Counted from the stretch's first letter, positions 3,119 to 64,000 are shown. The stretch is DNA of 64,000 nt from Planctomycetota bacterium (GCA_020060765.1 JAGUZQ010000098.1:1-64000), one strand, 5' to 3'. Made by a program: numbers and translations. Notes: generated by a model not told the origin, from the letters alone.

Positions 3119-4696
3119 TCATCCCTTGCCGTGGTCGGCCAGTCCTCCCACCCAGGGGCGTTCGGGCGCGGCGTCGCGCAGCAGCGGGAATTGCGTCACC
3201 ACCCGAACCATGTCCTTTTCCATATCCTCGACGACCGACAGCGGGCCGCGGAAGACAGTTTTCATATTCGCCCGGAGATGCGCAAAACGCACCATCACCC
3301 CCGCGTGCAGCATCTCGTTCACGTTGATCTGGTTGACGCAGTTGCGCAGGCGCGACTCGTGCAGTTTCAGCCGCTGCTCCTGCGCGCGCTCGATCCGTCC
3401 CCGCAGCTTGCGCATCAAAGGCAGCAGTTCCTGCAGGATCGCTTTCTGCTCCTTGTTGATGGCCACCGTCCCCAGTTCACCCCGCAACAGAGGATCAAGG
3501 CTCTCGTTGATCTCGCGCGCCCTCTGCTCCATTTCCCCGATATCCTTATCCAGCTCCGCGATCAGTTCCTCGGTGCGCCAGTCCATACCGGAGGAAATCC
3601 TGGTGGCAATCCCGAGTTCGCTGCCAAGGGAACCAGCCTCGACCCCCGAGAAAGCCACAGCCTCGCCGCCGAGGATCGAGCCACGCGGAATGAGCAGCCT
3701 GCCTCCAGCTCGCAAGGTAGAGTTTACCACCTCGTTCTCCACCGAGATATCACCGTCGGCCTCGACCAGCACGTCGTTGAGATACCTGGCGCTGACCGCC
3801 CCCCCCGCGGAAATTTTCCCCCGCCCCCTGCCCGCCACGCCGCCCTTGAGCAACACGTCGCCGTCGGAACTGATCTGGCAGGAACCGACGTTGCCGGCGA
3901 TGGTGACACCCTTACGCCCGTACACGTCGAAATCGTCTAGCACATTGCCATGCACAATCACCTCGCCGACGAAGTCGACGCTGCCGATGCTGTAATCCAC
4001 GTTCCCCAGCACCTCAAAGCGGGAGGAGATCGACAGTACGCCGTTTTCGAAAATGACACGCCCGTCCCTGTCAGCGAAAAGCTTGGCCAGGGACTGGTCG
4101 GCGCGGAGCCCCTCCCCCATGCGAAGAGTAACGCGCTTGCCGTCGACGGCAGGAATTTCATTGCCGAAGATATCCACCCCCGCCCTGCCCTTGGTCGGCG
4201 GATGGATAACCGCCACGGTATCGCCTTTCAGGGTGTTCTGGATGAGATTGGGACGATGAAAATCCACATTTCCATTTTCGTCGAGATCGTAGCGAACTTC
4301 CTGCGAGGTGGGCTGGATAGCGAACTCTATCTTGCCGTCCTCGCCGTCGAGCGCCGGGATTCCCTTCGCCAGCTGAAAAGGCCCCACCGGCTCTTCGCCG
4401 TGATTAAGCAGTTCCACCAGCAGCGCCAGCGCATCGTCGTCGATGCCGCGCACCACCCCCGCCTTTTTCAGGCAGGCGCGGATGTCCTCGAAATCGGCGT
4501 CGTGGGGAAGCAACCGCGTATAATGGAGAAACGCCTTGTACCCGTGGAAAGTCAGCACCCGGACGCGGCGGAGTTCGTTTTCCTCGAACAGCAGCACCTT
4601 GGCTTCCAACCGCCTGCCCCCTGCTCCGGCCACGGAAGTGACCGTGTGCAAGTCCTCGTCCTCGGGCAGAAACAGGTCTTCATCCGGAGCAGCCAT
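3119..4696 (-). CDS. FapA-like (DUF342) polymer-forming protein
   Basis: A cytoplasmic protein of 525 residues without signal peptide. The central part is a series of short beta-helix rungs (V-D-F-V-G-E-V-I-V-H-G-N-V-L-D-D-F-D-V, I-A-G-N-V-G, V-L-L-K-G-G-V-A-G) typical of FapA / DUF342. A long charged coiled coil follows (about 375-445: E-L-I-A-E-L-D-K-D-I-G, R-K-L-R-G-R-I-E-R-A-Q-E-Q-R). The N-terminal 110 residues carry a second domain common in this family. FapA proteins are linked to surface-appendage assembly and signal relay, but there are no flagellar genes here. It ends 6 bp from the MBL-fold gene on the other strand. Confidence 0.78.
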   Translation of the reverse strand: MAAPDEDLFLPEDEDLHTVTSVAGAGGRRLEAKVLLFEENELRRVRVLTFHGYKAFLHYTRLLPHDADFEDIRACLKKAGVVRGIDDDALALLVELLNHGEEPVGPFQLAKGIPALDGEDGKIEFAIQPTSQEVRYDLDENGNVDFHRPNLIQNTLKGDTVAVIHPPTKGRAGVDIFGNEIPAVDGKRVTLRMGEGLRADQSLAKLFADRDGRVIFENGVLSISSRFEVLGNVDYSIGSVDFVGEVIVHGNVLDDFDVYGRKGVTIAGNVGSCQISSDGDVLLKGGVAGRGRGKISAGGAVSARYLNDVLVEADGDISVENEVVNSTLRAGGRLLIPRGSILGGEAVAFSGVEAGSLGSELGIATRISSGMDWRTEELIAELDKDIGEMEQRAREINESLDPLLRGELGTVAINKEQKAILQELLPLMRKLRGRIERAQEQRLKLHESRLRNCVNQINVNEMLHAGVMVRFAHLRANMKTVFRGPLSVVEDMEKDMVRVVTQFPLLRDAAPERPWVGGLADHGKG

Positions 4697-4710
4697 AGCG
4701 CTTGATCCTG

Positions 4711-4750
4711 TCAGAGACTGAGAGACTAAGGGACTAGGGGACTAAATAAA
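4711..4750. repeat. Tandem octamer repeat, G-rich half (locus 1)
   Basis: Five consecutive 8-nt units fit exactly: tcagagac, tgagagac, taagggac, taggggac, taaataaa. They face the C-rich half at 4866-4905 about 115 bp away, so the two halves can pair. Confidence 0.7.
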
Positions 4751-4865
4751 ACTTGCCGAGACAAAAGAGAAAGCGCCAAGGTTATTTCCTCCTCTTACAA
4801 GGGCAGTTGGGAAGGATGACTACATTTCCCCTCTAATTCCCCTGCCCTCTCACGCAAAGAAAATC

Positions 4866-4905
4866 TTAGTCCCTCAGTCCCTTAGAGCCTTAGTCCCTCT
4901 CACGC
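4866..4905. repeat. Tandem octamer repeat, C-rich half (locus 1)
   Basis: Units ttagtccc, tcagtccc, ttagagcc, ttagtccc, tctcacgc run with exact 8-nt period into the last codon of metG. They are complementary to the G-rich half at 4711-4750. The roughly 115 bp between the halves contains no gene. Confidence 0.7.
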
Positions 4906-6600
4906 CAGATGCGGCGCAATCGCCTCATCCTCGATTTTCGGAAACAGCACCTCCGCCTTGCCCAGTTCGTGTCCCGGCGCGAGTTTCGCCGCCGTATGCC
5001 AGTCGCCGTCGATCAACGCAGGGAGGTTCAGCATCTCCCGCAGTTTTGCCGCCGAGAACGGCAGGAACGGATACATGAACACCGACAACGCCTCGACAAT
5101 CCGCATCCCGACCAGCAGCGTCGCGGCGCAAGCGTTCATGTCGGTTTTGCGGGATTGCCAGGGAGTTTCCTCGGCGAAGAACTGGTTGCCGCTGCGGCTG
5201 AAACGCATCAGCCTTTCCAGCGCCGCCTTGAACCTGCACCCGGCCAGCAACTCACCTATTTCGCGGCGCGCGGTTTTTATTTCCTCCAGCATGGCCTTGC
5301 CAGTGTCGGTCGTGACTTCGGCTTCCGGCACGCGACTGTCGAAATACTTGGCGACAAAACCGAGGGTGCGCTGGATGAAATTGCCCAGGTTGTCGGCGAG
5401 TTCCCCGTTGTTGCGCACCTGGAAATCCTTCCACACGAAATCGGAGTCGCTGGCTTCCGGCGCGATGGCGGTGAGGTAATACCGCAGCACATCGGGCGAA
5501 AAATATTTCAGATACTCGTCCACCCAGACGGCGTAATCGCGGCTGGTGGAAATCTTGTCGCCTTCGAGGTTGAGGAATTCGTTGGAGACGACCGCGTCGG
5601 GCAGGCGGTAGTCGCCGTGCGCCATCAGCATTCCCGGGAAGATTACGGCGTGAAAGACGGTATTGTCCTTGCCGATGAAGTGCACCAGGCCAGTCCCGGA
5701 ATTCTGCCAGAATTCTTTCCACTTCTCCGGTTCACCCAGGGATTCGAAATACTGGCGGGTAAAAGTGATGTAACCGATCGGCGCGTCGAACCAGACATAA
5801 AGCACTTTCCCTTCCGCACCGTCCAGCGGAACCGGCACACCCCAGGGCAGATCCCGGGTGATGGCGCGTTCGCGCAGACCCTGGTCGAGCAGCCCGTAGC
5901 TGAAACGCTTTACCGTCTCGCGCCATTCCGGATGGGCGTCCACGAATTTACGCAGATCGTCCTGAAAAGTTTCCAGGCGGAAATACCAGTGTTCGGTCTC
6001 GCGCACCTCGATATGCCCGCGGCTGGCGCGTTTCTGCATCCGGCAGATCATACACTCGGGGTCGATCAGCTTGGTGGCGTCTATGGTGCGCCCGCACGCC
6101 TCGCACTGGTCGCCGCGCGCGCCGGTTCTGCCGCAGTCTTCGTAATAGCAGGTGCCCTCGATATAGCGGTCGGGCAGGAACATGCCGCACTCGGTGCAGA
6201 AGACCTGCGAGGAGGTTTTTTTCTGGATATGCCCCTGTTCGTGCAGGCGGACGAAAAACTCGCGCGAGATTTCCTCGTGGCGGGGGCAATGGGTACGCCC
6301 GTAGATACTGAAGGCGATTCCCAGATCAGCGAAGGCTTTTTCGTTGATCGCGTGGTAGCGGTCGATGATGTCCTGGGGACCAACGCCTTCCTTCATGGCG
6401 CTGAAGGTGATGGGCGCGCCGTTCTCGTCGGAGCCGCAGATGAAATGCGCCTCGCGCCCGGCCAGGCGCAGAAACCGCACGAACTGGTCCGGCGGCAGGT
6501 AAGCCCCGGCGATGTGCCCCACGTGCAGGCGTCCGTTGGCGTAGGGCAACGCGGCGGTGACAAGATAACGTTCTTTCAAAATCTTGCTGAAAGCGTCCAC
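4900..6600 (-). CDS. metG: Methionyl-tRNA synthetase
   Basis: A class I aminoacyl-tRNA synthetase that charges tRNA-Met in the cytoplasm. The H-V-G-H signature is at residues 26-29 and the K-I-S-T-S version of KMSKS at about 349-353. Between them lies a two-knuckle zinc insert with C-T-E-C, C-Y-Y-E-D-C, C-E-A-C and C-M-I-C pairs. I place the start at the GTG at 6598-6600 because GGAG lies 6 nt upstream; an in-frame TTG 24 nt earlier has no site. At 566 residues the enzyme has the catalytic and anticodon-binding domains but no C-terminal tRNA-binding (Trbp111-like) extension. Confidence 0.93.
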   Translation of the reverse strand: MDAFSKILKERYLVTAALPYANGRLHVGHIAGAYLPPDQFVRFLRLAGREAHFICGSDENGAPITFSAMKEGVGPQDIIDRYHAINEKAFADLGIAFSIYGRTHCPRHEEISREFFVRLHEQGHIQKKTSSQVFCTECGMFLPDRYIEGTCYYEDCGRTGARGDQCEACGRTIDATKLIDPECMICRMQKRASRGHIEVRETEHWYFRLETFQDDLRKFVDAHPEWRETVKRFSYGLLDQGLRERAITRDLPWGVPVPLDGAEGKVLYVWFDAPIGYITFTRQYFESLGEPEKWKEFWQNSGTGLVHFIGKDNTVFHAVIFPGMLMAHGDYRLPDAVVSNEFLNLEGDKISTSRDYAVWVDEYLKYFSPDVLRYYLTAIAPEASDSDFVWKDFQVRNNGELADNLGNFIQRTLGFVAKYFDSRVPEAEVTTDTGKAMLEEIKTARREIGELLAGCRFKAALERLMRFSRSGNQFFAEETPWQSRKTDMNACAATLLVGMRIVEALSVFMYPFLPFSAAKLREMLNLPALIDGDWHTAAKLAPGHELGKAEVLFPKIEDEAIAPHLA

Positions 6601-8427: not shown

Positions 8428-8455
8428 GTCATTCCCGCGAAGGCGGGAATCCAGG
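8428..8455 (+). repeat. 29-bp palindromic repeat, copy 1
   Basis: Consensus CGTCATTCCCGCGAAGGC followed by GGGAATCCAGG. The ATTCCC-N8-GGGAAT core resembles dRS3-type repeats of Neisseria. Confidence 0.8.
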
Positions 8456-48349: not shown

Positions 48350-49579
48350 TTATTCCTCTTCAACTTCGTAGTTGTTTTTCAATAGTATATCGTCTCGTGA
48401 TGCCGTGAAAGAATCTGTGATGCGTTTAATGGTTGCGAATTCTTCACGATCTAAGAAGTCATAATTATTGCACCTTTTTCTTACAACTTCTCTGGCTATT
48501 TGCAATCTCATAAGTCGAGGTTCAATTTGTGAAGCATTACGGCGAACATAGTTGTGTATGTCAGCAAGAGAAGAGGCAACCTTAATTCCGTTATCAGTAC
48601 CGGTTATAATGATCCCATTGTCTCTAAGAATGGCAGTAATATTATGCCCAATATACCTCTTCACCTTTGTGTTTTCGTTGGGGGTAATGCAAAAACCTTC
48701 TTTCCTGAGTTTCTCTGCCAAAACTGAGGTATCCATATATTCTTGGTTGCCTGAATACTGCTCTCTTGAAAGAAGAATTCTTAATGCGGCTGCTGGCATT
48801 AAGAATTCTTCTTTTGTTCCACCATCATACTGATTTACAAAAGAAAAAGCAGTTTCCGTTAAGATATAATTCAAGTATTCATCAATTTCCACAGTGTTTT
48901 CAGGAGAGCTTCGATCACTTTTTGTAAACCTTAGCGGCCAAACTGAAAGATAAGATTTATGTGGAGCAAGGAGTTCTTGATACCTACTTGAATACTCACT
49001 CTTTCGCTTTTCGTCATAAATATACGCAAGCATTCCGGCTACCAGGTCTGCCATTTGTACGAATATTTCATTCTTTGAATCTATAAAATTATGTTCAAAG
49101 CTGTTAAAGAGATTAGAACAGAGGTTGTGCTTTTTAAGGTAATCATTAAAGCTATCTCTGAATTCGCGCCTGCCATAGTTGTCCTTTACAACAAAAATAT
49201 GGTTATATTCAGTGCTAAGTTGGCTATATAATATTCTGCTTATCCTTTTATACGCAGAACCTTTCCATCTCATGCCAGAATTGGGGTCTAAATTACTTTT
49301 ATTTGTAATGAGAGCATAATACTTGAATTCAATCTCGGTTAGCTTTTCTAAAACGCGGGCTCGCCTGACATTGTCTGTGCCAATATTAACGCTTTTCATA
49401 ACTCCATTAACATTGAATTCATTATTCTTAATCGATTCTAATTTTCTTCTTGAATCATCGATTTTATTTTCTGGTATCACAACGGCAACACAAATATAGA
49501 GATGACTGTTGTCTTTGGGTGATAAAGTCGTAGTGCCAAATTCATCTATAAATGCGTATACGCGTTCTGATATATCCAT
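48350..49579 (-). CDS. DUF3800 domain protein, AT-rich, probably acquired
   Basis: 409 residues, GAGGAAAAA before the ATG. Residues about 5-215 match DUF3800: Y-A-F-I-D-E-F-G-T at the start (the D-E-x-G motif), V-V-K-D-N-Y-G in the middle and V-Q-M-A-D-L-V-A-G at the end. The acidic residues recall an RNase H-like fold, and the family is often found near phages and defence genes. Residues about 235-400 form a second, mostly helical unrecognised domain. Base composition is much lower in GC than both neighbours. It sits just outside the prophage repressor and is a possible defence or exclusion gene. Confidence 0.72.
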   Translation of the reverse strand: MDISERVYAFIDEFGTTTLSPKDNSHLYICVAVVIPENKIDDSRRKLESIKNNEFNVNGVMKSVNIGTDNVRRARVLEKLTEIEFKYYALITNKSNLDPNSGMRWKGSAYKRISRILYSQLSTEYNHIFVVKDNYGRREFRDSFNDYLKKHNLCSNLFNSFEHNFIDSKNEIFVQMADLVAGMLAYIYDEKRKSEYSSRYQELLAPHKSYLSVWPLRFTKSDRSSPENTVEIDEYLNYILTETAFSFVNQYDGGTKEEFLMPAAALRILLSREQYSGNQEYMDTSVLAEKLRKEGFCITPNENTKVKRYIGHNITAILRDNGIIITGTDNGIKVASSLADIHNYVRRNASQIEPRLMRLQIAREVVRKRCNNYDFLDREEFATIKRITDSFTASRDDILLKNNYEVEEE

Positions 49580-51162: not shown

Positions 51163-51237
51163 AGGCTGACGGGTTGTCTGAATCTGACGCGAATCATTAA
51201 CCCATTAACCTATCAACCCGTTACCCCCGTCAACCCA
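51163..51237. repeat. Tandem octamer repeat (locus 3)
   Basis: A short G-rich half (aggctgac, gggttgtc) is followed by C-rich units cattaacc, cattaacc, tatcaacc, cgttaccc and, after one extra C, cgtcaacc. It ends about 5 bp before the AAAGG ribosome site of the next gene. Confidence 0.7.
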
Positions 51238-51253
51238 ACAAAGGAAAAACCAA

Positions 51254-51757
51254 ATGAACCTGACCATAACCAGAAACGGAAACGGGAAAAAGGCGCGCCC
51301 CGACGCCGACCGCCTGGAAAGCCTGTCTCCCGGCGCGGAGCCGGTTGAGGCGTCTGTCACGGTGCGCGACGGCGCGGAGGTGGCGCTGGAATGCCTGCGC
51401 CGGGGCATGTCCGAGGAGCGGATTCTTTCTGTCCTGCGCCGGGAGCACGGGATGCGCCCCACGCAGGCGGCCAACTGGCTGGAGCGCGCCTACGAAACAT
51501 TACGCGGCCTGCACGAACGGCGCGCTCCCATCGCCAAACTCGCGCGCGCGGTGGAGCAGCGCGAGCACATTGTCGAGAAAGCCCTGGCTAACAACGACTA
51601 TCGCATCGCCTTGTCGGCGATCGAAAGCCGCGACAAAATTCTGGGGCTGGGCGACAGCGACCTGACCGCCGAGGATCAGGCCGCGCGCAGCCTGCTGCAA
51701 CTGGCTGAACTCGCGCGCAACTCGGCGAATATGACGGATGAGGGACTGAGTCCCTGA
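51254..51757 (+). CDS. Putative terminase small subunit
   Basis: 167 residues. A helix-turn-helix-like centre (about 55-80; M-S-E-E-R-I-L-S-V-L-R-R-E-H-G-M-R-P-T-Q) comes before a long helix and the segment A-L-A-N-N-D-Y-R-I-A-L-S-A-I-E-S-R-D-K-I-L-G-L. The 'ND/GDY..AL.A...R.KLLGL' type of tail is common in small terminase subunits, which recognise the packaging site. The large subunit lies 4 kb further instead of next to it, so the call rests on pattern only. Confidence 0.5.
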   Translation: MNLTITRNGNGKKARPDADRLESLSPGAEPVEASVTVRDGAEVALECLRRGMSEERILSVLRREHGMRPTQAANWLERAYETLRGLHERRAPIAKLARAVEQREHIVEKALANNDYRIALSAIESRDKILGLGDSDLTAEDQAARSLLQLAELARNSANMTDEGLSP

Positions 51758-51769
51758 AAAGGAGAACAA

Positions 51770-52456
51770 ATGTCTGCATACGAAAACAATCCCGAACTCC
51801 CGGCGCCGCCCACGCGCACGCCGGTAACGGTGGAGCCTACCCGTATCGACCGCGACACGCGCACTCTGGAGGTGACTCTCACCACCGCTTCGCGCGACCG
51901 CCAGGGCGATGTGGTCGAGCCGACGGGTCTGGACTTTTCCAACTATCTGAAAAACCCGGTAGTGCTCTGGGCGCACGACCTGTCTCTGCCGCCGGTGGGA
52001 AAAGTGCTGAATGTCACGGTCGGCCCGCGCGAAGTCAGCGCCAGGGTGTTGTTCGCGTCGACCGAATTCGCGCGCGAGGTGTTTGACCTCTACGCTGACG
52101 GATTCCTGAATGCCTGGTCGGTCGGGTTTATTCCGAAAAAATGGAACCGGCTGCCGTCGGGCGGAAACGCTCCCGGCGGATGCCACGTGCTTGAAGCCGA
52201 GGTGGTCGAAGTCTCTGCCGTGCCGGTGCCAGCCAATCCCGAGGCGCTGACGCGGATGCTTTCCCACATCAAGAGCATCCGTCTCCGCGACAGTCTCGAA
52301 CAGAGAGCCCCGAAACCGATCACACTGGCGCAACTGGGAGTGCTCGGCCGCAAGATGGTGGAAGCGCTGACCCCCCGCCTCACCCGCCGCTGCCTCGACC
52401 TGGCCCGCGGGGTGGCTGCGCCACACGCATACTCGCAAGCGTTGGCGAACGCATAA
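51770..52456 (+). CDS. Prohead protease (HK97 family, U35-like)
   Basis: 228 residues; AAAAGGAGAACAA before the ATG. It shows the family order: V-T-L-T-T-A-S-R-D-R-Q-G-D-V-V-E-P-x-G, N-Y-L-K-N-P-V-V-L-W-A-H-D (the catalytic His), F-L-N-A-W-S-V-G-F (the catalytic Ser) and L-E-A-E-V-V-E-V-S-A-V-P-V-P-A-N-P. It cleaves scaffold and capsid precursors during head maturation. It lies before the capsid gene, as expected, with an antisense gene in between. Confidence 0.9.
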   Translation: MSAYENNPELPAPPTRTPVTVEPTRIDRDTRTLEVTLTTASRDRQGDVVEPTGLDFSNYLKNPVVLWAHDLSLPPVGKVLNVTVGPREVSARVLFASTEFAREVFDLYADGFLNAWSVGFIPKKWNRLPSGGNAPGGCHVLEAEVVEVSAVPVPANPEALTRMLSHIKSIRLRDSLEQRAPKPITLAQLGVLGRKMVEALTPRLTRRCLDLARGVAAPHAYSQALANA

Positions 52457-53250: not shown

Positions 53251-53290
53251 CGATAACCCGTCAACCCGTCCACCCGTCAACCCAACACAG
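53251..53290. repeat. Tandem octamer repeat (locus 4)
   Basis: cgataacc, cgtcaacc, cgtccacc, cgtcaacc, caacacag: exact 8-nt period, directly before the AAAGG of the capsid gene. Confidence 0.75.
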
Positions 53291-53301
53291 AAAGGAACAA
53301 A

Positions 53302-54396
53302 ATGAACGAGAACGTGAATCTTTCCGACCAGCAGTTCGGAACTTTGCTTGACGAGATGGCCAGGCGCTTCCAGCCGGTCATCGAGGAAAAGGCGCACCAG
53401 GCCATGCGCGACGCCGGGCTGACCAAGGTCGACCGCAAGCACGCCATGTTCCCCGGCGCCGACGACGCGAACCTGCCCGCCAAGGAACGGAGCTACCGTT
53501 TTTTCCGCGCGGTGCTCGGGGGCGACCTGCTGGGACTGAAGGCGCTGTCGGAAGGCAGCACCACCGCCGGGGGCTACCTGGTGCCTGACGGTTTCCGCGA
53601 GGAAATCATCGCGCGCCTGCCCGACCTGTCCGAACTCGCGCCCTACGTGCGGGTAGTGCCGGTGCGCGCCGACACCGGCAATGTTCCCAGTCTCGCTACT
53701 GACATCGCCATCACCTGGCGCGGCGGCGCGACTGCGGAAAATACGGCGTTTGGCGAAAGCGATCCCGTGCTGGGACAGTTGACCTGGAGCCTGAAACGCG
53801 CCGACGCCATCACCAAGATGAGCCGCGAACTGGTGGCCGATTCCGCGCCCAGCATCGTCGAATTCGTCACGCGGCTGTTCCGCGAAGCCATCGCCACCGA
53901 ACGCGACAAGATGATCGCGGTAGGCGACGGCACCACTCAGCCGCAGGGCATCTACTCCGCGTCCGGCATCGAATCGGTCTCGGTCGGCGGCGCGCTGACT
54001 TTCGCCAAACTGGTGGAACTGGAACAGACCCTGCCGCGCAAGTACCGCACGCGCGGACGCTGGATCATGAACGGCACCAACCTGCGCCGCATCTACTCGC
54101 TGGAAGACGACAACGGCCGCCCGCTCTTCGTGCGCGACATGGTGGCGGGCGTTCCCGAAAGCCGCATCCTGGGCTACCCGGTCGGCCAGCAGGACAATCT
54201 GCCTGATCACACCATTTTCTTCGGCGACCTCGGGTATTACCTCTGGTTCGACCGCGAGGAGATGGGAGTGGAATCGACCACCTTCGGCGGCGACGCTTTC
54301 GAGAAACACCAGACTTGGGTAAAAGTGTGGGAGCGCGCCGACGGCAAGGTCGGCCTGAGCGAAGCTTTCGTCAAGGGAGCAGGCATCACGGCATAA
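53302..54396 (+). CDS. Major capsid protein (HK97 fold)
   Basis: 364 residues. A short helical N-terminal delta domain (about 1-75) precedes the mature capsid, which begins with L-S-E-G-S-T-T-A-G-G-Y-L-V-P, the usual start of HK97-type coats. Further family motifs are W-R-G-G-A-T-A-E-N-T-A-F-G-E-S, S-R-E-L-V-A-D-S-A-P-S-I and the tail A-F-E-K-H-Q-T-W-V-K-V-W-E-R. It forms the icosahedral shell. The short delta domain suggests an internal scaffold cut by the protease upstream. Confidence 0.93.
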   Translation: MNENVNLSDQQFGTLLDEMARRFQPVIEEKAHQAMRDAGLTKVDRKHAMFPGADDANLPAKERSYRFFRAVLGGDLLGLKALSEGSTTAGGYLVPDGFREEIIARLPDLSELAPYVRVVPVRADTGNVPSLATDIAITWRGGATAENTAFGESDPVLGQLTWSLKRADAITKMSRELVADSAPSIVEFVTRLFREAIATERDKMIAVGDGTTQPQGIYSASGIESVSVGGALTFAKLVELEQTLPRKYRTRGRWIMNGTNLRRIYSLEDDNGRPLFVRDMVAGVPESRILGYPVGQQDNLPDHTIFFGDLGYYLWFDREEMGVESTTFGGDAFEKHQTWVKVWERADGKVGLSEAFVKGAGITA

Positions 54397-54672: not shown

Positions 54673-54701
54673 CGTCATTCCCGCGAAGGCGGGAATCCAG
54701 G
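54673..54701 (+). repeat. 29-bp palindromic repeat, copy 7
   Basis: Consensus form, in the gap before the glycosyltransferase gene. Confidence 0.8.
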
Positions 54702-54790: not shown

Positions 54791-54822
54791 AAACCCAGTA
54801 ACCCAATAAGCCATCAACCCAA
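54791..54822. repeat. Tandem octamer repeat (locus 5)
   Basis: aaacccag, taacccaa, taagccat, caacccaa, ending at the GAAAGG site of the next gene. Confidence 0.65.
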
Positions 54823-54834
54823 GAAAGGAATGAC

Positions 54835-55689
54835 ATGCCAGCACCTGATTTTGATGACGTCCTGGTCGAGCCTCTGCTGGAACGCGGAGCGATGGACGGC
54901 AAGGTCGACGTCGTCATTCCCTGCTACCGGGCGGAAAGGCATCTGCCCTTGCTGCTGAAAAGCATGAATGCAATTTTCACCGCCACGCCGGAATTGTGCA
55001 ATGTGATAGTAGTCATTGACGGCGACGACTACGAACCGGAGGAAACGATTCTCGCACACGTGCCGGAAAATGTGAGTGCACGTGCGGCTAAATTGTCGAA
55101 AAACACCGGCTATGCCCACGCCAGCAATGTCGGCACGGAACTGGGGCGCGCGCCGTACATATTATTATTGAATGCCGACGTGCAGGCGCGGGATGATTTT
55201 GTCACGCCCCTGGTCGAAGCGCTGGAAAGCAATCCCGAAGCGGCGGCGGCGGGCGGGCTTATTCTTGATCCGCGCGGCAGGATTCACAGTTGCGGCTCGG
55301 AATACAATCCCGCTTCGCTGTGCTACGACCATGTGCATCGCGACTGTCCCGCCGATCTGGACGATCCGTACGTGCGTGAGCCAGGCGAGCGGGATATGCT
55401 GACGGCGGCGGTTTTCCTGGTGCGCAGACGCGACTTCGAGGACGCAGGCGGCTTTGACGAAGCTTATGTACAGGCGTATTTCGAAGACACCGATCTGTGC
55501 ATGAAACTGCGCCATGCTGGCAAGAAAATACTTTATGTCCCTGCCAGCATATCCATGCACGAGTGCGGCCATAGCGGCGTCTCTTCACACAAGTTTTACG
55601 CGCACAATCGCGACCTCTTCCACCGCCGCTGGGTCGAGACCGGACTGGTCTACAAATTCGCGGAGGAACGTCGAACAAGCGAAGCATAA
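54835..55689 (+). CDS. Family 2 glycosyltransferase inside the head module
   Basis: 284 residues of GT-A type. V-D-V-V-I-P-C-Y-R-A-E-R-H opens the nucleotide-sugar domain (about 24-35). N-x-G-Y-A-H-A-S-N and L-L-L-N-A-D-V-Q-A-R-D-D (the DxD region, here N-A-D) follow. The acceptor part has L-V-R-R-R-D-F-E-D-A-G-G-F-D-E and Y-F-E-D-T-D-L-C-M-K. This is the rhamnosyltransferase-like GT2 pattern. No membrane helix. It lies between capsid and terminase genes, so a virion protein or the host surface polysaccharide could be the acceptor. GAAAGG precedes the start. Confidence 0.85.
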   Translation: MPAPDFDDVLVEPLLERGAMDGKVDVVIPCYRAERHLPLLLKSMNAIFTATPELCNVIVVIDGDDYEPEETILAHVPENVSARAAKLSKNTGYAHASNVGTELGRAPYILLLNADVQARDDFVTPLVEALESNPEAAAAGGLILDPRGRIHSCGSEYNPASLCYDHVHRDCPADLDDPYVREPGERDMLTAAVFLVRRRDFEDAGGFDEAYVQAYFEDTDLCMKLRHAGKKILYVPASISMHECGHSGVSSHKFYAHNRDLFHRRWVETGLVYKFAEERRTSEA

Positions 55690-55734
55690 GCTGATACCGC
55701 ATATCTCAGCAACTTACAAACGGAGATACCAAAA

Positions 55735-57084
55735 GTGAATGCCACGATTGCAAGAAACCTGATGGAACGCCTGAAATGCGACCCGGCGTTTTTCTGCAAA
55801 AACGTACTGGGCGTGGAACCGTGGGAAAAGCAGTTGGAAGTCCTGCGCAAGCTCCGCGACGGCGACCGGGTAGCGGTGCGCTCCGGCCACGGCACTGGCA
55901 AAAGTTTCATCGCCGCCGCCGCCGCGCTATGGTTTCTTTATTCGCATCATCCCGCGAAAGTCATTACCACCGCGCCGACGTGGAATCAGGTCAGGCATAT
56001 CTTGTGGAACGAGATCAAACGCCTGCACGCATTCGCGGTCGTGCAACTGGGAGGAACCTCTTTGGAGGAACGGATTAAAATCAGTCCCGATTCCTTCGCC
56101 ATCGGCTTTTCCACCGACGAAGCCGAACGCTTTCAGGGTTTTCACGCGGAACATGTGTTGGTGATTCTCGACGAAGCACCGGGCGTGCGTGAGGAAATCT
56201 GGCACGCGGCGGAAACTTTGCTGACCGGACGGGTGGGGAAAATTCTCGCCATCGGCAATCCCACCCGACCCGCCGGATTGTTTTACGAAGCATTTCGCGA
56301 CGGTTCGGGCTGGGACAGAGTGCATATCTCCTGTCTCGATTCGCCCAACGTCGGCGGCGATGTCAAGTTTCCTCGGCTGGTCACCGAACGTTGGCTGGAC
56401 TCGCGCAGGCGGGAATGGGGCGAGGATTCGCCGTTGTGGCAGGCGCGGGTGCTGGGCGAATTTCCCGAGGACGACATCAATCTGCTGGTGCCGCGCAAGT
56501 GGCTGGAATTGAAAAAGGCAAAACCAGAACAGCGCGGACAATTGCGCCTGGGCGTGGACGTGGCGCGGCAGGGGAACGACTCGACAGTGTTTCTTGTACA
56601 CGCTGAAACAGAGATTTTGCATCTCGAAGCCCGGCACGGCTGGAGCACGATGGAGACGGCGGGGCGGGTGATTGCGCTGATGAAGCAATTCAATCTCGAC
56701 GCCAACGAAGTGTTTGTAGACGATACCGGACTCGGCGCGGGAGTGACAGACCGTTTGCGCGAACAGGGGTATTACGTGCGCGCGGTGCTGGCCGCCAGTC
56801 GCGCGGAAGACGCCGAACATTTTTCCAATCTGCGCGCGGAATGCTACTGGCGGCTCAGGCAAAGCCTGTCGCCCGACGGCAGCCTGTCAATTCCGGAAAA
56901 CGAAACCGAATTGCGGCGGGAACTGGGCGCGTTGACTTTTTCCTATTCCTCCAGCGGCGCGATAAAAATCGTGGACAAGGTGGAACTGCGCGGGCGGCTT
57001 TCCGGTTCGCCCGACCACGCCGACGCGCTGGCGTTGACTTTCGCAGGTATCAACAACGCCGCGCCGGAAGTGATGATTATCTAG
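55735..57084 (+). CDS. Terminase large subunit
   Basis: 449 residues from a GTG with GGAG upstream. ATPase: Walker A G-H-G-T-G-K-S at 51-57, Walker B V-L-V-I-L-D-E at 141-147, coupling motif I-G-N-P-T-R. Nuclease (RNase H-like): G-V-D-V-A-R-Q-G-N-D at about 265-274, V-D-D-T-G-L-G-A-G-V and the final H-A-D-A-L. It pumps DNA into the prohead and cuts it. All catalytic residues look intact. Confidence 0.93.
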   Translation: MNATIARNLMERLKCDPAFFCKNVLGVEPWEKQLEVLRKLRDGDRVAVRSGHGTGKSFIAAAAALWFLYSHHPAKVITTAPTWNQVRHILWNEIKRLHAFAVVQLGGTSLEERIKISPDSFAIGFSTDEAERFQGFHAEHVLVILDEAPGVREEIWHAAETLLTGRVGKILAIGNPTRPAGLFYEAFRDGSGWDRVHISCLDSPNVGGDVKFPRLVTERWLDSRRREWGEDSPLWQARVLGEFPEDDINLLVPRKWLELKKAKPEQRGQLRLGVDVARQGNDSTVFLVHAETEILHLEARHGWSTMETAGRVIALMKQFNLDANEVFVDDTGLGAGVTDRLREQGYYVRAVLAASRAEDAEHFSNLRAECYWRLRQSLSPDGSLSIPENETELRRELGALTFSYSSSGAIKIVDKVELRGRLSGSPDHADALALTFAGINNAAPEVMII

Positions 57085-57106
57085 TCCCCTTATGCAGGAG
57101 CTCAAA

Positions 57107-58249
57107 ATGAAATTGACGCAACGCATGAAAACCGCCTGGGAAATGTTGCGCGGGCGGGAAACGAAATCGATAAAACCGGTGTTCCGCTCGTTCGCACCCG
57201 GAACAGGCGAGGCTTTATGGCGGGATGACCCGCAGCAACAGGTGCGGATGTGCCGCCATTGGGTGTACGTGGCGGTCCGGAGCATTGCGGCGAAAGTCGC
57301 AGGCACGCCGATCATGTTTCTTGATGAGAAGACTGGCGAGAAATTGCCGCACGCGCATCCCCTGCCGAAACTTTTTCGCGAGGTCAACCCTTTCGAAACC
57401 GCCGTCGGCTTGTGGATGAAGACGGTGATGTTTCTGGAACTGACCGGCAACGCCTTCTGGTACGTAGCGCGAAACGGCCTCGGGGCGGTAGCGGAAATCT
57501 GGATCCTGCCCAGCCAGAACATGCGCGTGTTGCCCAGCCGTACACGGTTTATCGACGGCTATATTTTCCGCAACGCTGGAGTGGAGGAGCGGTTCGAGGT
57601 CGATGAAATCATTCATCTCAAATACCCGTCACCGGAGTCGCAATTTTACGGGGTAGGGCCACTGCAGGCCGCAGCCGAATCAGTCGACGCGCACGCCGCG
57701 ATGAAAACAGCTGAGCGGCGCAGTTTTGAAACCGGCGCTTTTCCCGGTCTGGCAATCCAGACCGACGAGAAGCTTTCGCCCGATGTGCGGCGCAGGCTGG
57801 AGGAAACTTTTGCCGCCGGTTTCAGCGGCGCGGAACGCGCAGGCAAGACCCTGATTCTCGAACAGGGCTTGAAGGTGCGTCCCTTCACGTTCAGTCCGCG
57901 CGAGATGGATTTTCTGGAAAGTTCCAAAATGACGCGCGACGAGATCCTGTCGGTGTTCGGGGTGCCTGCGGCAGTGGCGGGAATCGCCGAGGACGTCAAC
58001 CGCGCGTCCGCCGAGGCAATGCTCTACACCTTTGCAGAAAACACGATCCTGCCGAAACTGCGGATGATCGAGGCTCAGCTTACGCAGGACTTGTGCAGCA
58101 CGTTTTCCCCGGAAATCGCGGCGCGGTTCGACAATCCCGTGCCGGCAGTGCGCGCCGAAGATCGGGCGGATATGGTCGCGCGCGTCGCCAACGGCATCAC
58201 CACCCCTGACGAGGAACGGGCGCGTCTGGGACTGCTCGCGAGAGGATAG
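57107..58249 (+). CDS. Portal protein (HK97 family)
   Basis: The ATG at 57107 follows CAGGAGCTCAAA; 380 residues. It has the clip/stem pattern of HK97-type portals: V-Y-V-A-V-R-S-I-A-A-K-V-A-G-T-P, N-P-F-E-T-A-V-G-L-W, L-T-G-N-A-F-W-Y-V-A-R-N, V-D-E-I-I-H-L-K-Y-P-S-P and G-V-G-P-L-Q-A-A-A. The C-terminal V-F-G-V-P-A-A-V-A-G-I and F-A-E-N-T-I-L-P-K are also typical. The dodecamer forms the DNA entry vertex. It lies directly behind the terminase. Confidence 0.92.
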   Translation: MKLTQRMKTAWEMLRGRETKSIKPVFRSFAPGTGEALWRDDPQQQVRMCRHWVYVAVRSIAAKVAGTPIMFLDEKTGEKLPHAHPLPKLFREVNPFETAVGLWMKTVMFLELTGNAFWYVARNGLGAVAEIWILPSQNMRVLPSRTRFIDGYIFRNAGVEERFEVDEIIHLKYPSPESQFYGVGPLQAAAESVDAHAAMKTAERRSFETGAFPGLAIQTDEKLSPDVRRRLEETFAAGFSGAERAGKTLILEQGLKVRPFTFSPREMDFLESSKMTRDEILSVFGVPAAVAGIAEDVNRASAEAMLYTFAENTILPKLRMIEAQLTQDLCSTFSPEIAARFDNPVPAVRAEDRADMVARVANGITTPDEERARLGLLARG

Positions 58250-58251
58250 GC

Positions 58252-59217
58252 ATGCGCGTGCATTACGCGACCGAATACGAGGGGATGGGAAATTCCTATG
58301 GCTATTCGGTGCATAACGCCCGCGTGAAACAGGCGCTGGCGGCACAGGGAGCAGAGTTTTCGGAAGACGCGCGTATCGCTTTTCACGTCGCGAGCGCGTC
58401 CGTATTCAAGCCTGCCGCGGACAAGATAAATGTACTTTATACCGCGTGGGAAAGCGATTCGCTGACAGATGAAGCGGCGGAATCGTATGCACGGGCGGAT
58501 CTTATCTTGGTGACTGCGCCGTTCCTGGTGAATGTTTTTAAGCAGGCGCTGCCGGATAAGGAAGTCCTTTGCGTGCATTTGGGAGTGGATACGGATCAAT
58601 ACCGTTATGTGCGTCGGCACTATGACCAGAGAAAACCGTTCCGTTATCTCTGGGTTGGTGCGCCTAATGCGCGCAAGGGATTTGAAGTCATTTTGCAGGC
58701 GTGGAAGCTATTTGAAAACAATCCTGCTGCAGAATTATATCTGAAGACGACTGTTACAGGCAAATACGCGATACATGGTAACGTAATATTTGATTCACGC
58801 CGGTTGCCGGAACAGGTTTTGGCGTCGCTGTACCAAAGTTGTCACGCATTCGTGTTTCCATCTTTTGGTGAAGGTTTCGGGCTGACGTTGTTCGAAGCGC
58901 TGGCGTGCGGGTGCCCGGCGATCTGGACCGACTGCACGGCGATGAAGGATTATCTGGGCGCGAATTACGGCTATCCCCTGCAAGGAAAACCGGTGCCCAG
59001 CGCGGTGGGAAACCTGTGCCAGTGCGACGCGGGAGAGCTGGCGGCAAAAATGGCGCAGGTGCGGGAAGATTACGCGAATAACCGGGCTTTGCGCAAAGCC
59101 GCGCGCGCGGCAAAACTGGTGCGGCAGGAATTCACCTGGGATAACACGGCGCGGAAGATTATCGGGGTGCTGGGAGAGGAGATGAGGACTGTTGCATTGG
59201 AAGACAACAAATGGTGA
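58252..59217 (+). CDS. Family 4-type (GT-B) glycosyltransferase inside the head module
   Basis: 321 residues. GT-B architecture with a short N-domain (about 1-110) and a GT1/GT4 C-domain. Key motifs are F-R-Y-L-W-V-G-A-P-N-A-R-K-G-F-E, F-V-F-P-S-F-G-E-G-F-G-L-T-L-F-E-A-L-A-C-G-C-P and the E-x7-E pair G-E-G-F-G-L-T-L-F-E. The start lies 3 nt after the portal stop with AGGATAGGC in front, so it is part of the operon. With the GT2 gene this gives two sugar transferases embedded in the head module. Confidence 0.85.
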   Translation: MRVHYATEYEGMGNSYGYSVHNARVKQALAAQGAEFSEDARIAFHVASASVFKPAADKINVLYTAWESDSLTDEAAESYARADLILVTAPFLVNVFKQALPDKEVLCVHLGVDTDQYRYVRRHYDQRKPFRYLWVGAPNARKGFEVILQAWKLFENNPAAELYLKTTVTGKYAIHGNVIFDSRRLPEQVLASLYQSCHAFVFPSFGEGFGLTLFEALACGCPAIWTDCTAMKDYLGANYGYPLQGKPVPSAVGNLCQCDAGELAAKMAQVREDYANNRALRKAARAAKLVRQEFTWDNTARKIIGVLGEEMRTVALEDNKW

Positions 59218-59238: not shown

Positions 59239-59267
59239 CTTCATTCCCGCGAAGGCGGGAATCCAGG
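59239..59267 (+). repeat. 29-bp palindromic repeat, copy 8
   Basis: Near-consensus copy, facing copy 9 across about 95 bp. Confidence 0.8.
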
Positions 59268-59428: not shown

Positions 59429-59998
59429 ATGTCTGCCTCGACAGACCTGACGAGTTTGGCGAAATTGAAAACTTATCTGGGAATTGGAGCGAGCGAGCAT
59501 GACGAGTTGCTGGAGGCGTTGATCGACGCGGCTTCCGATGCGATCGAGCATTACTGCGGGCGCGAATTTGCGTACGGCTCTCGCATCGAAATCCGCGACG
59601 GTGTGGGCGCGCGCACGGTGGTGTTGAAATGCCGTCCGGTGGAAAGCGTGACCAGCGTGCATATCGACTCTGCGATGGAGTTCGACGACGGTGCTTTGCT
59701 GCCCGAAAGCGAGTATACGTTTTATCCGGAGGAAGGCTTATTAACGCGGATGGCGGGTGTGTTTTCGCCCGGCGTGCGCAATGTGAAAATCGTTTACGTG
59801 GCCGGGTATGAAGCGATTCCTCCGGCGGTGGAGCAGGCGGCCAATATTCTCGCGGCGCACTTTTTCCACCGCGGCCACCAGGGAGGCGACGGCATCGAGT
59901 CGGAAAATATTGGCAGCTACACCGTCAGTTACGACACCTCCGACTGGCCGCACCAGGCGCGCGCGCTGCTGGCGGAGTTTCGGGAAATGCTGGTGTGA
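59429..59998 (+). CDS. Head-tail connector (gp6-like)
   Basis: The ATG at 59429 (AAGGAGAAGAAA) gives 189 residues. The N-terminus is typical of gp6-like connectors: S-L-A-K-L-K-T-Y-L-G-I-G-x5-D-E-L-L-E-A-L-I-D-A-A-S-D-A-I-E-H-Y-C-G-R. The central beta part has C-R-P-V-E-S-V, and the C-terminal helix contains P-P-A-V-E-Q-A-A-N-I-L-A-A-H. It docks below the portal. The longer open frame upstream runs through the repeat pair and is not the gene. Confidence 0.85.
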   Translation: MSASTDLTSLAKLKTYLGIGASEHDELLEALIDAASDAIEHYCGREFAYGSRIEIRDGVGARTVVLKCRPVESVTSVHIDSAMEFDDGALLPESEYTFYPEEGLLTRMAGVFSPGVRNVKIVYVAGYEAIPPAVEQAANILAAHFFHRGHQGGDGIESENIGSYTVSYDTSDWPHQARALLAEFREMLV

Positions 59999-60599: not shown

Positions 60600-60944
60600 A
60601 TGTCAATCAAATCATTGTTAAGGCAACGGGCAACCATCGAACGCGCGACACTCGCCGTCGACGGGGCGGGAGGAGCAGCACGCACCTGGGCGCAGGTCGC
60701 AAGCGACGTTCCCTGTCTGATCGAGGTGAAGCGCTCCGATGCCGAGATCCGCTCAACCGGCAGAGTCAGCCTTGCCTTCGCACGCGGATATTTCGCCGCT
60801 GACACCGATCTGCGTCCGCGCGCCGATGCCGACGGCGCTGACCGGGTAACGGTGGAAGGCGTGACTTACGACGTGACCGGCTGCCGCGTCGAGGCGGGGC
60901 AGGCGGAGAAACTGTTGGTGGCGGAATTGGCGGTTGCCGGTTGA
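60600..60944 (+). CDS. Phage head closure / head-tail adaptor protein
   Basis: 114 residues, AAGGAAGGGCAACC before the ATG. R-Q-R-A-T-I-E-R-A-T-L-A-V-D-G-A-G-G-A-A-R-T-W, V-P-C-L-I-E-V and D-R-V-T-V-E-G-V-T-Y-D-V-T are typical of gp16/SPP1-like head completion proteins, a small beta-barrel closing the connector after packaging. Its stop codon lies inside the octamer repeat that follows. Confidence 0.78.
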   Translation: MSIKSLLRQRATIERATLAVDGAGGAARTWAQVASDVPCLIEVKRSDAEIRSTGRVSLAFARGYFAADTDLRPRADADGADRVTVEGVTYDVTGCRVEAGQAEKLLVAELAVAG

Positions 60945-61333: not shown

Positions 61334-63409
61334 ATGGCTACTTTTACCGATACTGCGAATTTTACTTCCATCTCAAACTGCACCGTCGCCGACGGCAGCG
61401 TCACGGTCAACGATTTGGCTTCCCGCGCCCATCGCCTGGAGGAAGCCGACGGCACGACGCTTACCGATACCGGGCTCGTTGCAATCAATGGCACTCGCGA
61501 CGCAAACCTGGCCCGCGTCGCCGGGCCATTCGCAGGAACCTATGCGACCAAGGGCGACGGCGTGCATATTTGTTCAACGTCTAGTTCCGCCGCCTGGAGA
61601 AATTACTGGACGGTAGAGTTTCGAATCAAATTTACTTCAGCGGAATTGTCCGGCAGTAACGCACTATTTGGCCGTTACATTACTGGCAATACCATGTTAA
61701 GCACCTGGTGTGATTCTGGTAAACTTTGGCTGTACTGTGTTGGCTCAAGCGTAATAAATACCGGCACTGCCAGCGCTGTCATTGCGGCCGATACGTGGCA
61801 TCATGTACGGTATACATACGGCTCTGCTGGCGCTGGACAGGGTACTGCGACTATTTCCGTTGACGGCGTTCAGGCATTGTCTGTTGCCGGTGTCGGGCAA
61901 TTGGTAGCACCAACCGGAGACATCGGTATTTTTGCCGTAAATGTCATCACGCCCGCCAGTGTTTTTCGCGGTACGATGGCTGACTTCCGGTTTTACGATT
62001 CGCAAAAACCGGCGACTTACACCCCGCCGACTGAATACTATCGTAATTACGGTGACGTGTTAATACATGATGCCAGCGCAACACTACAAGATGCTGGCAG
62101 TGGTTTAGCATGGGACAATTCAACCGCGGCCAGAACTGTAACCGGTTCGCCAACAGTGAAATTTCAGTACGCAGATTATGCGACAGATCAGAGTTTCGCG
62201 GACGCCGCCGCAGTAGAGGCTGAAGCTTCCTGGAACGGGTCATGGCTTACCCTGGCGGAGTTACAAGCCGTTAGTGGCACAAACTGCCGCTATCGCTATT
62301 TAAAGTCACGGATAACTCCAACTACAGCAGGCGATTCTTTTGACGATTATTCGTGTGATACATACGCAACTGACACAACTCCCCCCGACGTGCCGACAAC
62401 AACAAAGTTCTCGTTGTTTGAAACCGACAACTACGCGATGATCTGGGTGGAGCCGGACGACGCTGATTTCTCCCATTGCGAATTGCGGCGCGACGTCGAC
62501 GGCACGACCTATTACCTGACGAAAAATGGTTACGGTTTGCCAGAATGGGCGACATCCGGCACATTTCTGACTTTCGCCGATGCCGATTCTTTCAGCGATC
62601 TGTCGGTGTCCAATTTCATCGACGAAGACATTTCGGGCGATAGCATTTCCTATTACGTCCGTTCCGTGGACGAAACCGGTAACGCCAGCGCGTGGACGCT
62701 TTTCACCGCGGGCGAAGGCCCGGATGCGCCTGACGCGCCGGTGTTGAGCGTCACGGACAACGGCAACGGCAGCGGCGCGATGGCGACGGTTTCCGGCAGC
62801 GACACCGGCACAACGAATACGGTTTACACTGCCTTGGTCGGGGCAACTTCCTGGACGGCAAAAGCGGTGATCTCTGGCGACGGCAGCGATGCGTTGTCGC
62901 TGACAATAGGGCAATATTGGGCGAAGGTGGAAAGCGCCGGTTCCGGCGGAGTGACGACCGGCAATGTCGTGAATTTCTGGGTGACTGACGGCGGAGTGTC
63001 GCTGCGGGAAATCAGGACATATCTGCGCGGACGGCTGGCCGGGGATTCGGCGCTGGCGGCATTGCTGGCGTCGGACAACTCCGTGCGCGCGGCGGGAGCG
63101 GTTCTTCCCGACGACGCGCCGTGCGTGATCTACGCGCTCGACGCCGACTGCGGCGAAGTTTACGAAACCACGGGAGCGCTGACCATTAAGGCGGAATTCA
63201 CGTCCTATTCACTTGACGGAGAAACGCTGGACTTGATCGACGATGCGTTGATAAGGCTGCTGGATAACCATACTTTCTCCACCCCGGTGTGGGAATGCAG
63301 ACGCTGCGCACGAGTCGGGTATTCCCCGAGGGAAACGCCCCCAGGCGACTTTTCGGCCAAGACCGTGGCGCGAACTGTGTTTTATGAATTTAATATCTTC
63401 CGGAAATAG
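61334..63409 (+). CDS. LamG-like adhesin fused to a tail-completion (DUF3168-like) domain
   Basis: 691 residues, GGGAGATGAC before the ATG. Residues about 55-235 form a LamG/concanavalin-like sandwich (Y-W-T-V-E-F-R-I-K-F, D-T-W-H-H-V-R-Y-T-Y, A-T-I-S-V-D-G-V-Q-A-L). Residues about 360-550 look like two Fn3/Ig-like modules (D-A-P-D-A-P-V-L-S-V-T-D). The last about 135 residues (L-R-E-I-R-T-Y-L-R-G-R-L-A-G-D-S-A-L-A-A-L-L-A, then D-D-A-P-C-V-I-Y and L-L-D-N-H-T-F) match DUF3168-type tail terminators in pattern and position. Normally that protein is about 130 residues and stands alone. The N-part may decorate the neck or bind glycans. Confidence 0.72.
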   Translation: MATFTDTANFTSISNCTVADGSVTVNDLASRAHRLEEADGTTLTDTGLVAINGTRDANLARVAGPFAGTYATKGDGVHICSTSSSAAWRNYWTVEFRIKFTSAELSGSNALFGRYITGNTMLSTWCDSGKLWLYCVGSSVINTGTASAVIAADTWHHVRYTYGSAGAGQGTATISVDGVQALSVAGVGQLVAPTGDIGIFAVNVITPASVFRGTMADFRFYDSQKPATYTPPTEYYRNYGDVLIHDASATLQDAGSGLAWDNSTAARTVTGSPTVKFQYADYATDQSFADAAAVEAEASWNGSWLTLAELQAVSGTNCRYRYLKSRITPTTAGDSFDDYSCDTYATDTTPPDVPTTTKFSLFETDNYAMIWVEPDDADFSHCELRRDVDGTTYYLTKNGYGLPEWATSGTFLTFADADSFSDLSVSNFIDEDISGDSISYYVRSVDETGNASAWTLFTAGEGPDAPDAPVLSVTDNGNGSGAMATVSGSDTGTTNTVYTALVGATSWTAKAVISGDGSDALSLTIGQYWAKVESAGSGGVTTGNVVNFWVTDGGVSLREIRTYLRGRLAGDSALAALLASDNSVRAAGAVLPDDAPCVIYALDADCGEVYETTGALTIKAEFTSYSLDGETLDLIDDALIRLLDNHTFSTPVWECRRCARVGYSPRETPPGDFSAKTVARTVFYEFNIFRK

Positions 63410-63914: not shown

Positions 63915-64000
63915 ATGAAAACCTTGACGAGCGCGGCGCAAACGGAATGCGGTGCTTTCGCTTCGCAACCGGCGCTGGTGTTGAAAATAGAATGTGGCGG
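63915..64000 (+). CDS. Start of a further tail-region gene (runs out of window)
   Basis: CAAAAGGAGCAACC precedes an ATG at 63915. The 28 visible codons begin M-K-T-L-T-S-A-A-Q-T-E-C and continue A-L-V-L-K-I-E-C-G-G. The start and spacing are like those of the neighbouring genes, but too little is visible to name a family. Confidence 0.6.
   Translation, partial: MKTLTSAAQTECGAFASQPALVLKIECG

Follow-up and report, generated by a model that had tools for sequence, protein, structure and literature searches.

The head module of a planctomycete prophage contains two different and intact glycosyltransferases (GTs), as originally predicted: a GT2 enzyme between the major capsid protein (MCP) and the terminase large subunit (TerL), and a GT4-type enzyme of GT-B fold (GT-B) behind the portal gene. 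Sequence comparison gives good support for both being phage genes that occupy a head-module slot kept in relatives, and they probably glycosylate one or more proteins of their own particle as late gene products. The window (the whole stretch of 64,000 nucleotides analysed) belongs to contig C123 (123 kb) of a 4.78-Mb draft genome. The head genes start at about 50.8 kb, and the prophage runs beyond base 64000 to contig position ~72 kb, with host genes resuming from ~72.1 kb. The features are listed in Table 1.

Table 1. Features of the prophage head module, in window coordinates.
Feature	Position	Strand	Evidence or remark
Leader motif 5' of TerS-like gene	51230..51246	+	
TerS-like gene	51254..51757	+	Unnamed by Pfam and PHROG; the unique leader precedes it and two further genes; homologues directly 5' of TerL in sister prophages
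Prohead protease	51770..52456	+	PF04586 1.8e-7, phrog_80 3e-23
Leader motif 5' of MCP	53277..53297	+	
MCP, HK97 type	53302..54396	+	PF05065 8e-53
23-bp dispersed palindrome, MCP/GT2 gap	54678..54700	+	Exact copy
Leader motif 5' of GT2	54814..54830	+	
GT2 glycosyltransferase, GT-A fold	54835..55689	+	PF00535 2e-14
TerL	55735..57084	+	phrog_2 5.5e-46
Portal protein	57092..58249	+	PF04860 1e-64
GT4-type glycosyltransferase, GT-B fold	58252..59217	+	PF00534 1.1e-15
23-bp dispersed palindrome, GT-B/adaptor gap	59244..59266	+	Exact copy
gp6-like head-tail adaptor	59429..59998 (likely start ~59429)	+	PF05135 5e-11, phrog_442 6e-38
Head completion protein	60600..60944	+	PF05521 2.9e-5, at cut-off
LamG-like protein, candidate substrate	61334..63409	+	No Pfam match of its own; 52% identity over 439 aa to L104:7229-9265

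To the right of the window, the prophage comprises a tail-tip-like protein, a radical-SAM enzyme, a GT9 and a small protein. The GT9 is a third GT of the same prophage; it is heptosyltransferase-like and lies just past the window end (C123:70305-71255, L009:7306-8256; PF01075 8e-16). Just left of the prophage is a DUF3800 gene (window 48350-49579, minus strand) with 36% GC, far under its surroundings. No tape-measure, major tail or integrase genes were recognised in the prophage or in a sister (C123 ~50.8-72 kb; L034/L035), and the prophage may be defective, tail-poor, or GTA- or satellite-like.

Both enzymes are encoded by full-length ORFs. The GT2 has 284 amino acids and matches PF00535 at 54.3 bits (cut-off 23.3); the GT-B has 321 amino acids and matches PF00534 at 58 bits (cut-off 26.4) and phrog_2170 (E=3e-32). 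The DXD-like donor motif N113-A-D115 and the acidic catalytic-base motif E217-D218 of the GT2 are invariant with L128 and L129 (three sequences only), and E207 and E215 of the EX7E motif of the GT-B are invariant among 14 aligned sequences. The predicted structure of the GT2, from an alignment of three sequences, is the less certain one; it has a GT-A fold with a pLDDT of 83, the other four models being clearly lower. Its closest PDB folds are polypeptide GalNAc-transferases, a likeness of the model that lends mild support to virion-protein glycosylation. The GT-B model has a GT-B fold (pLDDT 92.9), and its PDB matches are GT4-type enzymes. No membrane helix is predicted in the GT2, GT-B or GT9, and the peak 19-residue hydropathy of the GT2 is 1.39. 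A GtrA or GtrC partner is absent near both head-module enzymes, whose neighbours are TerL, portal and MCP. The composition was said to be common with the phage genes, which is partly right: GC3 is 0.66 in the GT2 and 0.61 in the GT-B, against 0.83 in the MCP, 0.70 in TerL, 0.72 in the portal and 0.60 in the LamG gene.

The leader TCAACCCAA(N0-8)AAAGGAA has exactly three copies in the 4.78-Mb genome, all within this prophage and placed before the TerS-like gene, the MCP and the GT2; shuffling gives an expectation of 0 for the window. Further AACCC units are common to the upstream regions of the leader-bearing genes. Because the leader is restricted to these three genes, the GT2 is tied to head-gene expression. 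The GT-B directly trails the portal, with its start 2 nt past the portal stop (3 nt in the original prediction) and its Shine-Dalgarno in the portal 3' end, which fits translational coupling of the two genes. A ribosome-site style common with the phage genes is thus strong for the GT2, while the GT-B has only an ordinary Shine-Dalgarno.

Sister prophages L033/L118 and L034, from the same bacterial family, have 61-64% identity in the MCP and 63-68% in the portal over the full alignment. They keep the usual order TerS-TerL-portal-protease-MCP-adaptor and have no GT in the TerS-to-adaptor stretch; with two close sisters lacking them there, the GT enzymes are not essential. In the window, the TerL-portal block is placed after the MCP, with the GT2 at its left joint and the GT-B at its right joint. 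The IMG/VR relative L040 has protease-MCP-TerL-GT-B-adaptor, so this arrangement, together with the GT-B, is common to both. A 23-bp palindromic repeat, TTCCCGCGAAGGCGGGAATCCAG, is intergenic at window positions 8432, 8595, 52509, 54678, 59244 and 59363, and is thereby present as exact copies in three head-module gaps (protease/MCP, MCP/GT2 and GT-B/adaptor). The palindromes at the joints are not claimed as the cause of the block swap, since the repeat is dispersed and the copies may be later insertions.

A search of IMG/VR by the GT-B sequence alone gave 17 loci from about 10 distinct phages. All 17 are head modules in which homologues of the MCP, the adaptor or both are encoded on the same strand, and the GT-B mostly falls between these two genes. 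This is its place in L038/L039 (two copies), L040, L049, L050 and L057; it comes directly after the MCP in L048, L051-L053 (contigs that stop before the adaptor) and L056 (first copy), whereas in L054-L056 and L058-L061 it follows a short way behind the adaptor. The planctomycete prophage L068 has MCP-GT-B-adaptor, and it is the only one besides the window with a GT-B above 100 bits among 392 genomes of the phylum. A scan of genome contigs with the GT-B alignment found no relatives, which is weak evidence of absence from a pattern-limited scan. In the GT-B tree, a branch supported at 98/95 divides 13 chromosomal GT4s from the GTs of the window, the slot and the actinophages; the root is not placed, and the tree shows grouping and no direction of transfer.

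Other genes are seen beside the GT-B in these metagenomic phage head modules. Radical-SAM genes of several kinds, some SPASM and some STM4011-like, adjoin it at L048:3446, L050:6683, L051:2498, L057:8838 and L059:5936, and a sulfotransferase-like gene is near it at L059:6735. Large fibre-like ORFs (L049:11100-13533, L050:9897-10844, L051:4529 and L056:1840-6731) start with an apparent secretion signal peptide, as judged by eye, an odd feature for phage structural proteins.

An independent sample comprises IMG/VR loci picked by the MCP, the closest five being at 44-60% identity (L127 is the L040 contig again). All five have a GT after the MCP. The slot GT of L126 has 1071 amino acids and four GT2 stretches, and is followed by a methyltransferase and then a nucleotide-sugar epimerase-like gene. 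L128 and L129 have GT2 enzymes of about 880 amino acids, L125 has a GT2-like start (by sequence) in a gene cut by the contig end, and L127 has the GT-B behind TerL. Counting also L068, the window and the two sisters without a GT there, seven of nine members of the clade have one. Among 75 more distant MCP-selected loci, at least L199/L200 (GT4-like and GT9) were flagged by profiles, a lower bound as many contigs stop early and the profiles are narrow. The MCP-adaptor gap has a median of 282 nt (n=55), and the three gaps above 1.5 kb contain the GT-B (L127), GT4-like and GT9 genes (L200), and a sulfotransferase-like ORF (L204, by motif). Sugar-pathway and tailoring genes in the slot include epimerase, GDP-mannose-dehydratase-like, methyltransferase, GT9 and sulfotransferase-like genes.

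The window GT2 clusters with the L128 and L129 domains (100/99) as against chromosomal planctomycete GT2s, a provisional grouping given the long branches. Scanning viral contigs with the single GT2 sequence gave zero matches. A scan with the slot-GT2 alignment gave 27 loci, of which L207/L129 are in the slot and L223/L224 beside the MCP; the head-gene profiles had no match at the remaining loci, and support for a GT2 slot therefore comes mainly from the loci picked by the MCP. Human-faecal 'Bacteriophage sp.' matches to the GT2 are unverified records and were left out of the phage evidence. Conserved GT genes in the same slots of related prophages, proposed earlier as a check, are found for most of the 17 GT-B loci, the five MCP relatives and L068. 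Clustering with host polysaccharide enzymes and absence from related phages, which were to count against the enzymes, are seen for neither of them.

Some slot GTs carry an additional domain. Those of L125, L126, L128, L129 and C39:61818-63884 have an N-terminal domain of 45-60 residues. A profile built from these five fusions and one stand-alone protein matches stand-alone small ORFs in the MCP-adaptor gap of L153, L180, L181 and L146 (E 2e-5 to 2e-3), matches that are short and weak; some of the stand-alone proteins also match DUF7302 or DUF7210. The small domain may have a head-targeting role. The L206 GTs were not counted as fusions, as the head-domain profile has no match to their N-termini.

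The C39 fusion is from a second, different prophage in the same genome (G000:C39 ~60-75 kb; L104, L117), where a GT-B-type fusion protein lies between capsid and adaptor in the order protease-MCP-GT-methyltransferase-like gene-small protein-adaptor. The LamG protein of this prophage is the homologue of the window LamG-like protein given in Table 1, and it matches PF13385 (1e-12). Profiles found no LamG homologue in the GT-less sisters, and L118 has a beta-helix-like protein after the head-completion gene in place of LamG. LamG and GT thus occur together in these few prophages, and on that ground the LamG protein is a reasonable candidate substrate and no more.

The tail-tip-like protein (contig C123:63915-66602, L009:916-3603) contains a CX3C-repeat tract. 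The enzyme downstream of it (C123:68494-70032, L009:5495-7033) is of the radical-SAM/SPASM type and is nearest to the PapB and SCIFF maturases, below their cut-offs. The same pair is present in the G007 and G385 prophages; loci of this kind include L034:17076-19643 with L035:2132-3418, L101:5544-9716 with 3827-5479 (both minus strand), and L242-L254. CX3C repeats in tail-tip-like phage proteins reach 124 units. An IMG/VR scan by radical-SAM alignment gave 14 loci, 9 of them with CX3C-rich ORFs near the enzyme, compared with 2 of 166 loci chosen otherwise, these two being the G007 and G385 prophages. The enzyme possibly introduces RiPP-like cross-links into a virion protein.

With regard to function, a sugar on the capsid or the LamG protein, as originally proposed, is the best reading of the position, the lack of predicted membrane helices, the co-occurring sugar enzymes and the fold similarity. 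Both enzymes would be made in the cytoplasm alongside the head proteins, the GT2 via the MCP-type leader and the GT-B from its place directly behind the portal. Activated sugars would be drawn from the host pool and placed on a virion protein, either the MCP or the LamG-like head or fibre protein or both, and the sugar would then be extended, perhaps by the phage GT9. We infer the acceptor protein and glycan, along with the donor sugar, the order of action and the benefit, which may be shielding, adsorption or avoiding recognition. A virion protein is the favoured acceptor in view of the variety of slot enzymes, the common leader and the phage-specific grouping of the GTs. MCP C-termini of GT-bearing and GT-less relatives are alike with no obvious difference; an added Ser/Thr tail on the MCP of GT-bearing phages was looked for and not seen.

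Modification of the host surface, in which an O-antigen-like polysaccharide of the lysogen is altered and superinfection is blocked or the receptor changed, is the way the best-known phage GTs work. The GT2 weakly matches the GtrB-like phrog_841 (E=1e-6), the GT9 is similar to heptosyltransferases, and planctomycete chromosomes have multi-domain GT2s about 30% identical to the window GT2. This rival is nevertheless improbable: the absence of a predicted membrane helix and of a nearby Gtr partner disfavours O-antigen conversion, there is no separate cassette, the GT2 has the MCP leader, and both enzymes cluster with slot enzymes of other phages. Sugar transfer to a modified base of the phage genome is very unlikely, even though DNA-glycosylating GTs encoded by viruses are known (Pyle et al. 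2024, as cited in PMC12619734), as the slot is in the head module and not a replication module and the prophage proteins searched, some of them from genes without names, include no recognised enzyme that would hydroxylate or hypermodify a base.

The GTs may also be neutral or decaying cargo with no selected particle role, in a capsid-adaptor gap that tolerates insertions and a prophage that is possibly defective. The dispersed repeats filling intergenic gaps, the lack of recognised tape-measure, major tail and integrase genes, the GT-less sisters and the rearranged head blocks are in line with this. It is doubtful, since both ORFs and their catalytic motifs are intact, many phages have sugar or protein-modification enzymes in the slot, the leader is common to head genes, fusions to a head-module-like domain exist, and the order MCP-TerL-GT-B-adaptor is common to the window and L040. 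Glycosylation of the particle's own proteins stays the preferred reading. A broader and tentative possibility is that planctomycete and related phages form a lineage with a built-in virion-protein modification programme. Its capsid-adaptor hotspot would supply GTs, some fused to a head-module domain targeting the assembling head, as well as sulfotransferase-like, methyltransferase and radical-SAM enzymes, and in some genomes a PapB/SCIFF-like radical-SAM maturase encoded at the opposite end would cross-link the CX3C-repeat tail-tip protein.

Four known systems can be compared with the window enzymes. Gtr cassettes (GtrA/GtrB/GtrC) are alike in that GtrB and the GT2 are members of one broad superfamily; the window enzymes differ in lying in the head module and in lacking predicted membrane helices and a flippase or GtrC partner. 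Chloroviruses glycosylate their own capsid protein. The GT of chlorovirus NY2A (PDB 3oy2) is a virus-encoded enzyme of GT4-like fold with a TMq of 0.75 to the GT-B model, but the virus group and hosts are unrelated and the identity is 15%, making this an analogy and not membership. The actinophage GTs of the Streptomyces and Rhodococcus phages Faust, Samisti12 and Grayson are the nearest cultured-phage relatives of the GT-B, at about 25% identity and adjacent in the tree; unlike the GT-B, they are near ribonucleotide reductase and endolysin genes and not in the MCP-adaptor gap.

Virion glycosylation is established in mycobacteriophages, with Che8 gp110, Corndog gp38 and Myrna as examples (Freeman et al. 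2023, as cited in PMC12363180, PMC12619734 and PMC11256854). In the papers covered, measurements of sugar on phage particles come mainly from a few mycobacteriophages, in which the sugar changes recognition by the immune system. In both cases phage-encoded GTs are thought to act on particle proteins; capsid and tail-tube glycans are measured in the mycobacteriophages and predicted here. No Mycobacterium phage was among the tblastn hits of the GT-B and GT2 (E<=1e-5), and searches of the open literature yielded no account of a capsid-adaptor GT hotspot or of GTs fused to a head domain. A conserved capsid-side slot holding varied sugar enzymes in uncultured phages would point to virion glycosylation as an evolved trait that is more widespread among phages. 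The slot also provides a genomic rule for finding more cases, namely to inspect the capsid-to-adaptor gap, and a question open to particle glycoproteomics, while the N-terminal head-domain fusions suggest a targeting route. The kind of system, phage-encoded virion glycosylation, is already known; compared with the mycobacteriophages, what is new here is the conserved MCP-adaptor slot, the variety of GT families and other enzymes, and the fusions to a small head-module-like domain, in phages of planctomycete hosts.
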